From an uncultured Caryophanales bacterium (GTDB lineage Bacteria > Bacillota_I > Bacilli_A > RF39 > UBA660), in NCBI GenBank assembly GCA_947571655.1, contig CANOYR010000015.1:1-34452 (forward strand): a stretch of 34,452 nt of DNA, written 5' to 3'. Numbering within the stretch: the first letter of the stretch is position 1; each line of letters opens with the position of its first letter. Under the pieces are notes generated by a model, which saw only the letters and a list, made by a program, of their open reading frames with translations, ran no database searches and was not told where the DNA came from. The translations under genes were made by a program, and so were the position numbers. This document shows positions 29,483 through 33,982 of this stretch, one piece after another.

Positions 29483-29869
29483 ATGGAAACAGTACCAAAA
29501 ATGATATCAACTAAAGATCTTGCTTATTTATCTGATATGTTTCAATGGAATTTTACTACTTATAAACAATTGAAACATTTTGCTAATGAAGTAGAAAATG
29601 AAGAGATTCAAAATCTTTTTTTAGAATTATCAGAAATGCATTATCAGCATCTAGAATGGATTCTTGCAATTTTAAGAAATGAGGATTTATCAGAAGAAGA
29701 GTCTGATAATGATACTGAATGTGATGACGATGAAGAAGAGTCTGATAATACTGAATGTGATGACGATGAAGAAGAGTCTGATAATACTGAATGTGAAGAT
29801 GACGAAGAAGAATCTGATGATGATGATGATGAAAATGAGGAAGAGGAGGAAGACGATGAATCAGAATAA
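29483..29869 (+). CDS. CotF-like spore-coat-type protein with acidic repeat tail
   Basis: The first 65 residues form a two-helix ferritin-like segment (STKDLAYLSDMFQWN, then EEIQNLFLELSEMHYQHLEWIL). They resemble the short CotF-like coat proteins of spore-forming Firmicutes that come in adjacent pairs. From residue 70 on, the protein is a highly acidic repeat of Glu/Asp with Ser, Asn, Thr and single Cys (unit EEESDNTECDDD), ending in an Asp/Glu run. The ribosome site GAGGAGG is strong. Its last 14 bases overlap the next gene's start. The acidic tail could bind metal or basic proteins; this is inference. The family call is moderate because the helical part is short. Confidence 0.7.
   Translation: METVPKMISTKDLAYLSDMFQWNFTTYKQLKHFANEVENEEIQNLFLELSEMHYQHLEWILAILRNEDLSEEESDNDTECDDDEEESDNTECDDDEEESDNTECEDDEEESDDDDDENEEEEEDDESE
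29693..29824 (+). repeat. In-frame tandem repeat, 36-39 bp units
   Basis: Units start with GAAGAAGAGTCTGATAAT at 29693 (39 bases), 29732 (36) and 29768 (36). A fourth, degenerate partial copy begins at 29804. They code for EEESDNxTECDDD-like acidic segments. The second and third copies are nearly identical, so copy number could vary between strains or collapse in assembly. Confidence 0.9.
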
Positions 29870-30179
29870 GATAGAAAATCCTAAGACTCCTTATGAAGAA
29901 GGATTAGAGATGAATGATAAAGATTATTTAAATAGTATCTTAGAGTTGGAAAAAAATTTATCTAATAATACAGCTATTGCTTTGGATGAGGCAAGTAATG
30001 GGGAACTTTATGAAGAATTTTTTACGATGTTAGAGGATTTAAAAGACGCTGCTAGAGAATGTTATGACTTGGCTTTTCGTCTTGGTTGGTATTCTTTAGA
30101 ACCTGCGGAAGAAGAGAAAATTAATGAAAAATTGACTTGTTTAGAAGAACAATTAGAAACGTTAGAAAGTGAGAATTAA
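29856..30179 (+). CDS. CotF-family spore coat protein
   Basis: This 107-residue protein has the CotF/ferritin-like core: EMNDKDYLNSILELEKNLSN, then ALDEASNGELYEEF, DLKDAARECYDLAF and the diagnostic RLGWYSLEPAEEEK. In Bacillus, CotF is a coat protein made in the mother cell. The ATG at 29856 overlaps the end of the preceding gene by 14 bases, and GAGGAGG lies about 9 bases upstream, so translation is coupled. The same frame is open further upstream, but that part only reads the acidic repeat of the other gene out of frame. A terminator follows directly. Confidence 0.8.
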   Translation: MNQNKIENPKTPYEEGLEMNDKDYLNSILELEKNLSNNTAIALDEASNGELYEEFFTMLEDLKDAARECYDLAFRLGWYSLEPAEEEKINEKLTCLEEQLETLESEN

Positions 30180-30192
30180 ACTCACTTTTTTT
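30166..30192 (+). terminator. Terminator of the CotF-like pair
   Basis: AAAGTGAG and CTCACTTT pair over 8 bp around a 7-base loop holding the stop, followed by T residues. It separates the coat genes from the bacteriocin-type operon. Confidence 0.88.
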
Positions 30193-30229: not shown

Positions 30230-30235
30230 TATAAT
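30230..30235 (+). promoter_or_regulatory. -10 element of the bacteriocin-type operon
   Basis: TATAAT lies 15 bases before the exporter's GTG, directly upstream of its ribosome site. No -35 is found at 16-18 bases; TTGGAC is 24 bases away. Either the promoter needs an activator or this is not the true start. Confidence 0.4.
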
Positions 30236-30249
30236 CAGGAAGTGATGAA

Positions 30250-32340
30250 GTGAGATTACCTTTTGTAAAACAAGATGATTCCAAAGATTGTGGTGTAAGT
30301 TGTTTGTTAATGATTATTCGTTATTATAAAGGAAATATTCCTAGAGAACGATTAAGAGAAATTACAAAGACTACGAAGGATGGAACACTTGCTTATCATT
30401 TAATTGATGCAGCAAAGAAACTTCATTTTTCGGCAGTTGGCGTAAAGGGAAATGTAGATGATTTGGGAAGAAGAGATTTACCTTGTATTGCTCATGTTGT
30501 TATTGAAGAGAAGTATCAACATTATATAGTGATTTACAAACTGAATTCTAAAAAACTTCTAATTGCAGATCCCGCAAGAGCACTTCAAGTGATAACAAAA
30601 GAAGATTTTAAAAAGATTTCTACAGGTGTATTTCTTCTTTTTTCGCCCCAGAAGAAAATACCAGAGATTGGCATTAATCATGAACTAAAACCTTTTTTAT
30701 TATCGTTTTTATTATCACAGAAGAGGCAAATTCTCTCTTTTGTTTTATTTTCGATTGGTTGTTTTTGCTTAAGTTTATTGGGAACTTTTCAGTTAAAATA
30801 TTTATTAGAATCGGTGATTGGTTTTGATTCTAAATATAATTTGTTGTTTTATGTTGTATTTTTTGTAGTAGTGAATGTCATTCAAACCATTTTTCAAATT
30901 GTGCAATTTTCTTTGGCTGGAAAGATTCATCATCAACTTGGGAGAAATCTTTATCAAAAGGTATATATACATCTTACATCACTTCCATATTTGTATTATA
31001 GAAATCATTCTACTGGTGAAATTATGGCAAGACTTTTTAATCTTGAAAAATTGGAACAAACATTTCAATCAACATTTCTTCTTCTTTTTACAGAAATTCC
31101 ATTTTTTTTAATTATTACTTGTGTTTTAGGTATCTTAAAAATTGAAATAGTTTTTATTCTTGTTGCTTTTTTATTTCTTAGTTATTTTAGTTTTTTTCCT
31201 TTAGAATTTTTTGGTGAAAAGAAAATGAAAGATGCTAAGCAGAAGACAGAAGAGATTCATTCATATTTGACCGAAAGTTTTTTGGGAATTGAAACAATTC
31301 AAGCATTTAATGAACAAGAAAAATTTCAAAATCGTTTTTTTTCTATCTATTATTCCTATAAAAAAAGTCAAATCTCTTTTCTTAAAAATTGGAATTTACA
31401 GCATATTCTTGAAAGTTTTATGGAGAAAATGTTTATGATTTCTTTATTGGTTTTATGCAGTTTAGAAGTGTTGGATGGAAGAATGTCAGTTAGTGATTTG
31501 ATTCTTTATCACTCGTTATGTACTTATCTTTTGGAGCCTATTAAGCATTTTAAGTCTTATCAATTGGAGTATAGAGAAGCACGGGATGCTTGGAATCGAA
31601 TTGAAGAACTTTTTATGATTCCAAGGGAAAAATTACTTCCAGATTGGAAAAGAAAAAAATTAAGAATAGAAAAAATAGAGCTTGAAGAAATTTGTTATAG
31701 CTACAATGCGAAAAATCAGGTACTCGATCATCTTACATTTGAGATAGAAAAGGGACAGAAGATATTGGTATATGGAGCAAGTGGGGGAGGAAAAAGTACA
31801 CTCGCAAGATTACTATCTAGAATTTTAGAACCAGATCAGGGAAGAATTCTGTTAAATGGGAATGATATTAAGAATTATTCGCTTTCCTTAATTCGAGAAA
31901 AAATTTTATATGTTCCACAAAAAGGATATTTGTTTACGACATCTGTATTAGAAAATATCAATGGTCGGGATGAAAAAGAAATTTTGGAAAAAACGCTAGA
32001 AGTTGGGAAACTCTGTATGGTGGATGAATTAGTAAGTGGAAAGTTGGAAGGCTATCATTGGATAATTGAAGAGAATGGGTATAATCTAAGTGGAGGAGAA
32101 AGACAAAGAATTATCCTAGCTCGTTCCTTATTCAAGAGGGCATCCGTTTATATTTTTGATGAAAGTTTTAGTGAGCTTGATCCAATAAAGGAGCGAAAAA
32201 TTTTGGAAAATATATTTGCTAGATATCCAGAAAAAACAATGATTATGATTTCTCATCGAGAAAGAAATCAGGATTTGTTTCATAAAAAAGTTTATTTAGA
32301 AAAAGGGAAGATTTATGAAGAAGTTGAATCAGTATCATGA
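30250..32340 (+). CDS. Peptidase C39-containing ABC exporter for double-glycine-leader peptides
   Basis: Such transporters cut the leader after Gly-Gly and export bacteriocins or pheromones. The 696-residue protein has the three expected parts. First is an N-terminal C39 cysteine protease (Gln8, Cys14 in KDCGVSC, His91 in HYIVIY, Asp107 in ADPA). Next is a six-helix membrane domain (about 155-430). Last is a C-terminal ATPase with GASGGGKST (509-517), the Q-loop at 557, LSGGE (613-617), VYIFDES (633-639) and ISHR (667-670). All catalytic residues are present. The start is GTG, with AGGAAGTGAT upstream. It heads an operon with a membrane accessory protein and two small leader peptides, which are its likely cargo. 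Confidence 0.95.
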   Translation: MRLPFVKQDDSKDCGVSCLLMIIRYYKGNIPRERLREITKTTKDGTLAYHLIDAAKKLHFSAVGVKGNVDDLGRRDLPCIAHVVIEEKYQHYIVIYKLNSKKLLIADPARALQVITKEDFKKISTGVFLLFSPQKKIPEIGINHELKPFLLSFLLSQKRQILSFVLFSIGCFCLSLLGTFQLKYLLESVIGFDSKYNLLFYVVFFVVVNVIQTIFQIVQFSLAGKIHHQLGRNLYQKVYIHLTSLPYLYYRNHSTGEIMARLFNLEKLEQTFQSTFLLLFTEIPFFLIITCVLGILKIEIVFILVAFLFLSYFSFFPLEFFGEKKMKDAKQKTEEIHSYLTESFLGIETIQAFNEQEKFQNRFFSIYYSYKKSQISFLKNWNLQHILESFMEKMFMISLLVLCSLEVLDGRMSVSDLILYHSLCTYLLEPIKHFKSYQLEYREARDAWNRIEELFMIPREKLLPDWKRKKLRIEKIELEEICYSYNAKNQVLDHLTFEIEKGQKILVYGASGGGKSTLARLLSRILEPDQGRILLNGNDIKNYSLSLIREKILYVPQKGYLFTTSVLENINGRDEKEILEKTLEVGKLCMVDELVSGKLEGYHWIIEENGYNLSGGERQRIILARSLFKRASVYIFDESFSELDPIKERKILENIFARYPEKTMIMISHRERNQDLFHKKVYLEKGKIYEEVESVS

Positions 32341-32728
32341 GATGTTAGAGGAGCCTTTTTCTATAAAGAAGTATTTTATAATTTTCTTTTCGCTGTCTTT
32401 AATTTTAGGTTTGGTTTTAATGATTCCAATTGATTTCAATTTATTTGTTTCTTTGGTGAAAAATGATGTTTATTATGAAGCTTATTTTTCTAAAGAGCAA
32501 TTGGAAGAGATTGAGGATACTGGGATTTTTATGAAAAAGAAGGAACAATATCATTATCAAATGCAGTTGGTTGAGGATCATTCAATTGCTTATGAAGGGT
32601 CTACTTATTATTTGGCAAGGTTTCAATTTCAGGAAGAAGTTAAGAACCAGGTATTATCAGGAAAGATTCAAATTTCTAGAAATACATTATTCAAATACAT
32701 TATTTCATTATGGAAGGAGGAATCATAA
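32315..32728 (+). CDS. Short membrane-anchored accessory protein of the peptide exporter
   Basis: This 137-residue protein has a cytoplasmic head with HEMLEEPFSIKKY and one membrane segment (about 19-38), then an extracellular domain of about 95 residues. Its end, SGKIQISRNTLFKYII, resembles the end of HlyD/LcnD/ComB-type membrane-fusion accessories. Those proteins are usually 400-470 residues with a long coiled-coil hairpin and a lipoyl domain, and both are missing here. It overlaps the exporter by 26 bases, with AAAAGGGAAG before its ATG. The stop TAA overlaps the presumed start of the first peptide. A role in export next to the ABC protein is inferred. Confidence 0.65.
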   Translation: MKKLNQYHEMLEEPFSIKKYFIIFFSLSLILGLVLMIPIDFNLFVSLVKNDVYYEAYFSKEQLEEIEDTGIFMKKKEQYHYQMQLVEDHSIAYEGSTYYLARFQFQEEVKNQVLSGKIQISRNTLFKYIISLWKEES

Positions 32729-32868
32729 TCGAAAAAATTTCAAATGAAAATTTAAAACAAATTCAGGGAGGAGGACTATCTTTCTGGGTAATTGGAGGTC
32801 TTGTTGCATTAGGGACATTTTTAGTTGGGGTCTTTGATGGAATCGCAAGGCCAGAGAAATGTGGATAG
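32725..32868 (+). CDS. Double-glycine-leader peptide 1 (bacteriocin precursor candidate), ATA start
   Basis: A leader ending NLKQIQGG (negatively charged, hydrophobic at the expected spacing) is followed by a 31-residue core: GLSFWVIGGLVALG, then TFLVGVFDGIARPEKCG. The core is hydrophobic, Gly-rich and near-neutral, with GVFDG (a GxxxG) and one Cys next to the end. AAGGAGG (32714-32720) places the start at ATA (32725, 47 residues) or the next codon, ATC. No ATG, GTG or TTG is there; the only in-frame ATG (32710) lies upstream of the ribosome site. It follows the accessory gene and precedes peptide 2 by 8 bases. Alternatives are a silent gene or a base error. Confidence 0.7.
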   Translation: MIEKISNENLKQIQGGGLSFWVIGGLVALGTFLVGVFDGIARPEKCG

Positions 32869-32876
32869 GAGGAAAA

Positions 32877-33044
32877 ATGCAAGTAGTAGGAGAACATGAA
32901 TTAATTCAAATTGTGGGAGGAACTAGTATTTCTGGAACTTTGATTAATTCTTTTTCGACGATTTTAAAGACGATTAGTTCTTTGGGAAGAAGTTTTGGCT
33001 CTTCACTAAGAAGGATTGCGACGAACAGTTTATGTCCATTATAA
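32877..33044 (+). CDS. Double-glycine-leader peptide 2 (bacteriocin precursor candidate)
   Basis: This 55-residue precursor has a 15-residue leader, MQVVGEHELIQIVGG, and a 40-residue core, TSISGTLINSFS then TILKTISSLGRSFG and SSLRRIATNSLCPL. The core is cationic and amphipathic, rich in Ser, Ile and Leu, with GRSFG (a GxxxG) and one Cys near the end. GGAGG lies 4 bases before the ATG at 32877, the same spacing as to the ATA of peptide 1. An in-frame ATG at 32859 overlaps peptide 1 and would place the ribosome site inside the gene. With peptide 1 it looks like a two-peptide (class IIb) pair, but I know of no named homologue. Confidence 0.8.
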   Translation: MQVVGEHELIQIVGGTSISGTLINSFSTILKTISSLGRSFGSSLRRIATNSLCPL

Positions 33045-33208
33045 AGAGAAAAAAAATTTTAGTAGGAGTTCGTCTCTTAGGTCATTTTGTCCTTGCAATC
33101 TTTGGATGTTATTTTCTAAATTATGTTTTGCTAAGTTTTTTTCATTTAGGAAAATATAGTGGAACTTTCCTTAGAATGCTATATCATCTTGTGAATTCGT
33201 TTTGTTAG
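33032..33208 (+). CDS. Small membrane protein, candidate bacteriocin immunity protein (58 aa)
   Basis: This gene overlaps the last 13 bases of peptide 2. The 58-residue product has a basic start (MSIIKRKK) and two hydrophobic stretches (about 9-23 and 26-39), then a Lys/Tyr/Arg-containing tail ending VNSFC. Small basic membrane proteins directly after the peptides are the usual immunity proteins of class II bacteriocins, so this is the natural inference. There is no separate strong ribosome site, so translation would be coupled to peptide 2. The stop lies at the base of the operon's terminator hairpin. Confidence 0.6.
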   Translation: MSIIKRKKILVGVRLLGHFVLAIFGCYFLNYVLLSFFHLGKYSGTFLRMLYHLVNSFC

Positions 33209-33238
33209 GAATTGATATTTAACAATCAGTTCCTTTTT
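33207..33238 (+). terminator. Terminator of the bacteriocin-type operon
   Basis: AGGAATTGAT (33207-33216) pairs over 10 positions (one G-T) with ATCAGTTCCT (33225-33234) and is followed by TTTTT. It closes the exporter-to-immunity transcript. Confidence 0.88.
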
Positions 33239-33424: not shown

Positions 33425-33982
33425 GTGAAAAAGTATGTAATATCTAGAGAAAATGTCTGTATAGGAGAATTATTCAAGATTGATTGGGATCCCCTTAGGA
33501 TTAGGGGTAGTAATAGAGATAAAGATGAACAAGAGGAAATCCCATTTAGAATTCCATGTTATTCAGTCCATGTATGTAGAGCAATGTTATTTAATGTCAA
33601 TAAGGATGGACTTGCGAATGATTTAATTTGGACAACTCCAAGTCATTATCTTATTGAAGGTATAAACCCTAAGGTTGATGTTATAACTAAATTTTATATT
33701 TCTGATTATGTCAAATTAGAAGAATTACTGAAATTTTGGAAATATGATGTTGCTTTAACTCAACGTGATTTAAATCGCATATATAAAAAACTGATTGCTA
33801 ATAAGGATTGGCTAAAAAATCATCGGGAATTATTCGGATTTCAAAAAACATCATCAGGGGGTTATAGATATGGTGGAGAAGAAATAATTTCTTATGATAT
33901 TTATAGTAAGCTTGCGATGATTACTGCCCCTGGGGAACCAGATGTACTTGAACCAGGATACTTAATTAAAAGAAGAAAATAA
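33425..33982 (+). CDS. Hypothetical protein (185 aa)
   Basis: I do not recognise this protein. It is soluble, mixed-charge and without a signal or membrane segment. Visible parts are IPCYSVHVCRAMLFNVNKDG (two nearby Cys), a helical middle (YVKLEELLKFWKYD, then TQRDLNRIYKKLIANKDWLK), a Gly-rich SSGGYRYGGEE, and APGEPDVLEPGYL near the end. The GTG start has AAAGGAGAG upstream. It has its own promoter and terminator, so it is a single-gene unit between the bacteriocin-type operon and rpsU. Its isolated position and the AT-rich spacers on both sides suggest an accessory gene. No function is proposed. Confidence 0.75.
   Translation: MKKYVISRENVCIGELFKIDWDPLRIRGSNRDKDEQEEIPFRIPCYSVHVCRAMLFNVNKDGLANDLIWTTPSHYLIEGINPKVDVITKFYISDYVKLEELLKFWKYDVALTQRDLNRIYKKLIANKDWLKNHRELFGFQKTSSGGYRYGGEEIISYDIYSKLAMITAPGEPDVLEPGYLIKRRK

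Follow-up and report, generated by a model that had tools for sequence, protein, structure and literature searches.

A lineage-wide class IIb-like two-peptide locus in RF39 bacteria with a candidate immunity protein related to one of its peptides

Introduction

Clusters for class IIb bacteriocins are described as holding two precursor genes and genes for immunity, a transporter, and an accessory protein, with GxxxG motifs in the peptides (PMC6957408). The peptides of this class are reported to permeabilise target membranes (PMC8538875), and the working of the immunity proteins of two-peptide bacteriocins was termed a mystery in 2019 (PMC6957408). Described here is a five-gene locus of this kind in a 34,452-nucleotide stretch of DNA, called the window below, from an uncultured Caryophanales bacterium of the order RF39 (assembly GCA_947571655.1, contig CANOYR010000015.1). 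It encodes a C39 exporter, a short accessory protein, two peptides, and a third, 58-residue protein that had been put forward in an original prediction as the candidate immunity protein of a two-peptide bacteriocin.

Among class IIb systems, lactococcin G and carnobacteriocin XY share with the window locus adjacent precursor genes, a GxxxG motif in each core, an exporter, an accessory protein, and a small membrane protein. The window system differs in having no adjoining regulatory genes, in being near-universal in its order, and in carrying a pair of cysteines.

Gallocin A of Streptococcus gallolyticus (GllA1, GllA2, and GIP) likewise has two leader peptides and a third gene for a small immunity peptide (PMC10100652). 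In that account, immunity by competition is proposed from low-confidence models in which GIP resembles the bacteriocin peptides, so decoy-type immunity is not new as an idea. The disulfides of gallocin A matter; each peptide has two cysteines, which form intramolecular bonds (PMC10100652). The loci described here mostly have one cysteine per peptide, so that a bond would link the peptides. They differ further in that the third protein shows sequence homology to one peptide, and in that the locus is spread over many genera and near-universal in another order.

The Cdz system of Caulobacter consists of two small glycine-zipper proteins, a type I exporter, and a small membrane immunity protein (PMC5380434). 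Cdz is outer-membrane associated and contact-dependent, and its proteins are larger. Its immunity protein, CdzI, is described there as having no obvious homologue and three predicted membrane segments (PMC5380434). Among the listed open-licence PubMed Central titles and abstract openings, no paper on a conserved peptide pair in RF39 was recognised.

The peptide pair

As originally predicted, the window encodes two adjacent, different peptides with Gly-Gly (GG) leaders, and the mature cores have the 31 and 40 residues given in that prediction. They were compared across 121 loci, made up of 120 fetched loci and the window. Similarity to peptide 2 was the criterion for fetching these loci, which favours all counts for peptide 2, cysteines included; the 193-genome count of the order and the check that begins from the exporter, both given below, are the fairer tests. 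The modal leader length is 15 residues in both peptides.

Both cores are hydrophobic and helix-like. GxxxG is found in 119 of the 120 peptide-1 cores and in 120 of the 121 peptide-2 cores, compared with 49% and 28% of shuffled cores, and its glycines are invariant or almost so in both alignments. The AlphaFold model of peptide 2 has one helix at precursor residues 20–49 that holds the GxxxG (mean predicted local distance difference test score 81). The two cores have no detectable homology to each other (hhalign 0.1%).

A cysteine is present in all 120 peptide-1 cores, in 118 of them as PxxC, and in all 121 peptide-2 cores it lies 9–13 residues past the GxxxG. Exactly one cysteine per core is found in 106 of 120 pairs, the window included, and two per core in one pair, with the leaders of a few pairs placed only loosely for this count. 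On this count the gallocin-type subgroup with two cysteines per peptide was rejected as a home for the locus. Both C-terminal ends are readable in 142 genomes (120 + 8 + 13 plus genome G152, each genome being counted once; one additional peptide 2, cut by a contig end, lies outside the count). Cysteines are in both cores in 141 of these, in neither in G152, and in no case in one core alone. Genus-mates of G152 with readable ends keep both. Joint loss in G152 is what an inter-peptide bond would predict, and the pattern suggests that the C-terminal cysteines pair to give a disulfide-linked heterodimer.

A start of peptide 1 at ATG 32710 is less likely, as no ribosome site lies ahead of that codon. 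The likely start is ATC 32728, to which both the modal 15-residue leader and an AGGAGG sequence point. At the position of the modal ATG, the window and its closest relatives (loci L295, L296, and L297) have ATC, ATT, or ATA behind a good ribosome site. Similar non-ATG starts are seen in distant loci for peptide 1 (L088, L100, and L107) and for peptide 2 (L054 and L071). Such loci would use either non-AUG initiation or an upstream ATG, GTG, or TTG that has no ribosome site.

The third protein

The 58-residue protein is, judged by its sequence, a homologue of the C-terminal half of peptide 2. An initial set of open reading frames (ORFs) 3' of the peptide-2 gene was picked on three properties only: where they lay, whether they had a ribosome site, and how hydrophobic their products were. 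It comprised 34 ORFs, two of which were unrelated and dropped. A hidden Markov model (HMM) of the peptide-2 core scored above 5 bits in 23 of the remaining 32. An HMM of the third protein then found the gene in 69 of the 121 loci, and 68 were kept after the doubtful L132 was dropped; the set also excludes the first candidates of L082 and L091.

The peptide-2 HMM scored above 5 bits in 51 of the 69 third proteins. The same threshold was passed by 6 of 69 reversed sequences, 3 of 690 shuffled sequences, 4 of 581 exporter segments, and 1 of 120 peptide-1 cores. HHalign aligned 25 columns of the C-terminal half of peptide 2 with the end of the third protein (probability 93.1%, E 3.1e-7 for the single comparison), and the control alignment of peptide 1 with the third protein gave 0.1%. 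In the reciprocal direction, the third-protein HMM matched peptide 2 at E < 0.01 in 15 of 20 loci, with no peptide 1 among the two best matches per locus. In another set of loci, all its matches at E < 0.05 were six peptides 2, two third proteins, and one unrelated frame, again with no peptide 1. The motif GxxxGxxxR is shared by 62 of 68 third proteins and 111 of 121 peptides 2 (0.2% and 2.6% of shuffles, respectively).

A pattern resembling a GG leader is absent from 67 of the 68 third proteins. The flank ahead of the hydrophobic stretch is positive, with a median of +3, and by the positive-inside rule the peptide-like end would face outward. The protein may confer immunity as a decoy. Halocin C8 is a precedent for self-derived immunity.

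The third gene is present in 11 of 14 loci of the window's genus. Genome size does not differ with its presence (p 0.54).

The exporter and the accessory protein

The complete C39 exporter of the original prediction is present, with all three expected domains: Peptidase_C39 (E 7e-35), ABC_membrane, and ABC_tran. The C39 domain with its Cys-His-Asp residues, together with the ATP-binding cassette (ABC) transmembrane and ATPase domains, is the make-up of a peptidase-containing ABC transporter (PCAT). The residues Q8, C14, H91, and D107 show no substitution among 113 exporters, with gaps at Q in five and at C in four. The nearest solved relative by sequence is PCAT1 (4ry2, E 1.7e-91), and the match to PCAT1 and to ComA (8hf4) extends across nearly the whole exporter. 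The window exporter differs from these two in being encoded with a short accessory protein. Its best NCBIfam model, TIGR01193, gives 386.6 bits, which is under the cut-off of 523.9. A scan with the exporter as the query confirmed no relatives on viral contigs.

The 137-residue accessory is possibly a reduced adaptor of the HlyD/MacA type. It may match only the membrane helix and the beta domain of such adaptors.

Distribution across the order

When peptide 2 served as a single-sequence query, 171 of 193 genomes of its family gave a match. A peptide-2 profile (A1) matched 183 of 193 genomes of the order and 79 of 83 genera; all genomes in this sample of the order belong to one family. Eight of the ten genomes without a profile match also lack a C39 hit. 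The other two are G066, whose sole C39 hit is weak and lies in a 1073-residue frame, and G226, where the contig edge comes after the exporter.

Follow-up covered 23 missing genomes, which came from the single-sequence search (20 of its 22 misses) or had been missed by the profile. A C39 hit was found in 12 of them. With G066 set aside, six have a diverged peptide pair adjoining the exporter, and in the other five a contig end cuts the locus. Among these 11 exporters, found through the C39 domain, none lacked a peptide pair where the contig continued. Relatives that keep the exporter and have lost the peptides had been named beforehand as grounds for abandoning the bacteriocin proposal, and this search did not turn them up.

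The window's genus has matches in 14 of its 17 genomes. Of the three without one, two are more than 90% complete and have no C39 hit, which indicates that the cassette can be lost.

Matches that span the model were not found beyond the family, in 392 genomes of the phylum for peptide 2 and in 296 genomes of the class for peptide 1. Elsewhere, peptide-2 hits cover the leader and the front of the core alone (model positions 1–43 of 55 at most), and peptide-1 hits are fragments, some within long frames. Peptide 1 was found in 34 of the 38 genomes of its own family listed in the class sample. Peptide 1 has matches in 214 clusters of a large protein set. Among the 120 clusters listed, two carry the name of the lactobin A/cerein 7B family (from one source), four are called hypothetical, and the rest are unnamed; none has a Pfam domain. 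A genome-wide scan with a single peptide-2 pattern returned 48 loci, all from uncultured or broadly named organisms, with labels from Bacilli, Mollicutes, and Tenericutes to Clostridia.

Several adjacent profile matches occur in G045, G167, and G263. The extra ones of G167 lie in the third gene and in the leader of peptide 1, and a duplicated pair seems to be present in G045. Similar GG-type leaders, followed by unrelated ends, occur in frames of 62–139 residues from families f3 and f4 of the class (for example, loci L170–L179). These frames from small genomes may encode further peptides that C39 exporters secrete.

Gene order, inheritance, and selection

The same gene order is found in relatives. 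The exporter lies at most 600 bp upstream of peptide 1 in 115 of the 121 loci; five of the others are cut by a contig end, and L126 has a gap of 2.9 kb. In L045, about 0.7 kb separates peptide 1 from peptide 2.

Downstream neighbours among the 121 loci include ribosomal protein S21 (66 loci), YqeY (58), an era-like GTPase (30), and YqfD (24); neighbour families were checked on examples, and many of the loci end early. Three upstream neighbours recur in 24–28 loci each: a SpoIIIAH-like protein (below the Pfam cut-off), a LuxR/GerE-type helix-turn-helix protein, and a protein without a Pfam match. The cassette often stands among sporulation-type genes.

Median pairwise identity is 0.41 for each core, 0.33 for the exporter, 0.20 for the accessory, and 0.26 for the third protein. 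For the neighbours it is 0.52 (YqeY), 0.56 (S21), and 0.58 (the era-like protein). Distances correlate with those of YqeY, with Spearman coefficients of 0.50 for peptide 1, 0.34 for peptide 2, and 0.44 for the exporter, and p at the floor of 0.005 set by 199 permutations. The locus is apparently inherited vertically and is mostly present in a single copy.

The ratio of nonsynonymous to synonymous substitution rates (dN/dS) in the ten closest pairs is 0–0.46 for peptide 1 and 0.02–0.29 for peptide 2, with some dS values above 1 and so near saturation. By this measure the cores are under purifying selection, in contrast to the rapid change expected in an arms race.

Two other accounts of the distribution were rejected. 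An ordinary patchy bacteriocin disagrees with the presence in 183 of 193 genomes, the conserved neighbours, and the correlated distances. Recent mobile acquisition was dismissed after searches in which peptide 2 matched no plasmid and peptide 1 matched no phage.

Comparison with curated bacteriocin families

The features shared with class IIb are the two adjacent genes for different peptides, the GG leaders with a C39 exporter and an accessory protein, and a GxxxG in each core. A candidate for the membrane immunity protein, homologous to peptide 2, is seen in 68 of 121 loci. Two families were tried for the peptides and rejected. With the model of the lactobin A/cerein 7B family (TIGR03949; cut-off 21.5 bits), peptide 1 reaches 13.7 bits and peptide 2 is not matched; the family name is attached to two of the 120 peptide-1 relatives listed. 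For the lactococcin G-beta/enterocin 1071B family (NF038034), peptide 1 scores 18.0 bits against a cut-off of 37.

Proposed function and alternatives

We lean towards a class IIb-like two-peptide bacteriocin whose peptides together permeabilise other cells, with the small protein taking the place of peptide 2 to protect the producer. The fit with class IIb rests on the GG leaders, the GxxxG in each core, the dedicated exporter, the accessory, and the small hydrophobic protein, and the locus is classed here as a lineage-wide new variant of class IIb two-peptide systems. The original prediction was thus probably right as to kind. It is revised as to scope, since a system present in 183 of 193 genomes, under purifying selection and with paired cysteines, is not a local or patchy one.

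In the mechanism proposed, both precursors would be cleaved at GG by the exporter, which would also carry the cores out of the cell, and the accessory would take part in most species. The cores would pair through their GxxxG faces, possibly locked by a disulfide between the C-terminal cysteines, and the paired cores would permeabilise other cells. The producer itself would be shielded by its anchored third protein, which would present peptide 1 with a false partner. We infer each of these steps, from cleavage and export to disulfide formation, membrane damage, and decoy immunity.

Several results weigh against this proposal. The near-universality and strong conservation of the locus are unlike typical bacteriocins and would fit a housekeeping role too. 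No curated class IIb family matches above its cut-off (peptide 1 has matches below the cut-off only), and among the curated bacteriocin families peptide 2 matches ComC alone, below the cut-off (E 0.82). The accessory is missing in 33 of the 116 loci with a readable gap. The third gene was undetected in 53 of the 121 loci, three of which have less than 200 bp of downstream sequence, and so it cannot be the sole protection. Cognate specificity was looked for in 65 loci and not found, the similarity of the third protein to its own and to other peptides 2 having medians of 22 and 21. As to the disulfide, the joint loss of cysteines is a single event, and the cysteine count leans on loci found through peptide 2, whose cysteine sits in the query. 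Disulfide formation also requires an oxidant.

A serious rival, serious because the locus is so constant, is a structural role in the producer's own envelope. The exported pair would then be a conserved surface or envelope component that stays in the producer's membrane or wall, with the third protein as its membrane-anchored partner. The near-universal and mostly single copies, apparent vertical descent, purifying selection, and frequent position beside rpsU-yqeY all agree with such a role, as do the incomplete presence of the third gene and the lack of cognate specificity. An exporter of the PCAT type, HetC, is reported to serve cell differentiation in Nostoc (PMC10986499). Set against this are the loss of the whole cassette in the window's genus, where both the peptide-2 match and the C39 hit are missing from G208 and G245, and the point-by-point agreement of gene content and GxxxG pattern with class IIb clusters; the envelope role is on balance judged unlikely. 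A signalling pair read by a receptor of sister cells, which had been named beside the bacteriocin originally, is far less probable still. C39 exporters also export signals, and LuxR/GerE-type genes lie near 27 of the 121 loci. The window has no kinase or regulator adjoining the genes, and the hydrophobic, helix-like cores of 31 and 40 residues are conserved order-wide instead of differing from species to species. Moreover, a signal needs neither two peptides nor a homologous membrane protein.

A different doubt concerns the third protein, which might resemble peptide 2 merely through a common helix-packing motif, with immunity, if needed, located elsewhere. GxxxG is common in membrane helices, and a gene that goes undetected in so many loci and shows no cognate preference would not be surprising under this explanation. 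It is nonetheless considered rather unlikely, as the shared motif is the longer GxxxGxxxR, far above its frequency in shuffles, the profile match runs across 25 columns, the third-protein HMM matches peptide 2 and not peptide 1, and the start of the third protein overlaps the end of peptide 2. The candidate immunity gene of the original prediction gains support as a peptide-2 homologue, but it went undetected in 53 of the 121 loci.

If the bacteriocin reading with its decoy holds, the locus would be a sequence-level case of paralogous-decoy immunity in two-peptide bacteriocins, and a bacteriocin would be a core trait of an order. A protein that copies the sequence of one peptide is a direct and testable answer to the immunity question. 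The idea that such peptides are accessory traits is also called into question by a bacteriocin-like pair that is fixed, not patchy, throughout an order.

The benefit to the cell is more speculative. No match to FabH (PF08545) was obtained in 74 of 79 genomes of the order, among them that of the window, so fatty acids may need an outside source, as has been suggested for RF39 (PMC6784871). The lack of a FabH match and the small genome agree with a placement of the window in RF39. The system might help cells to take fatty acids and other nutrients from neighbours. In its furthest form, which we consider doubtful, the order would depend on an ancestral, disulfide-linked two-peptide pore that extracts from neighbours the lipids and nutrients which these bacteria are unable to make, and is kept like a housekeeping gene beside rpsU-yqeY. 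Immunity would then come from a duplicate of peptide 2 that lost its leader, gained a membrane anchor, and kept its pairing face, and this decoy would capture peptide 1 and hold it in a dead-end complex. In any case, the locus offers a clue to the ways in which uncultured small-genome bacteria, mostly without a FabH match, may deal with their neighbours.

Operon layout and neighbouring features

All five genes of the original prediction are present where it placed them, and their coordinates are collected in Table 1. The first base of the 58-residue ORF falls within the codon for Cys38 of peptide 2, twelve bases ahead of the end of that gene's stop codon. The single terminator predicted at the operon end corresponds to the downstream hairpin. 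With the upstream hairpin it flanks the five genes, which therefore look like a separate unit. No kinase or regulator adjoins the operon genes within the window, in agreement with the original prediction. No promoter of the operon stands out, with 22 sites of known promoter type compared with 22.2 expected by chance.

Table 1. Features of the two-peptide locus in window coordinates.
Feature	Coordinates	Strand	Description
Upstream terminator-like hairpin	30164..30190	+	Fold z −2.3; closes the upstream Coat_F gene and opens the operon
Peptidase-containing ABC exporter (C39 + ABC)	30250..32340	+	696 aa; GTG start
Accessory protein	32315..32728	+	137 aa; predicted membrane helix 17–35 and beta domain 38–124
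Peptide 1 precursor	32728..32868	+	Likely ATC start; alternative ATG 32710
Peptide 1 mature core	32773..32865	+	31 aa; GxxxG at core residues 19–23; Cys30
Peptide 2 precursor	32877..33044	+	55 aa; ATG giving the modal 15-residue leader
Peptide 2 mature core	32922..33041	+	40 aa; GxxxG 22–26; RR 30–31; Cys38
58-aa hydrophobic (predicted membrane) protein	33032..33208	+	Start codon overlaps the peptide 2 Cys38 codon
Segment of the 58-aa protein homologous to the peptide 2 C-terminal half	33122..33205	+	GxxxG, Arg, terminal Cys
Downstream terminator-like hairpin	33207..33234	+	Fold z −3.0; closes the operon

Between the operon and rpsU lies a 185-residue ORF (33425–33982) for which neither Pfam nor NCBIfam gives a match better than chance. 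Directly upstream of the operon, a protein with a very acidic tail (29483–29869; DUF3231 match below the cut-off) overlaps a Coat_F protein (29856–30179). These two are spore-coat-like genes in a genome of 1.3 Mb.

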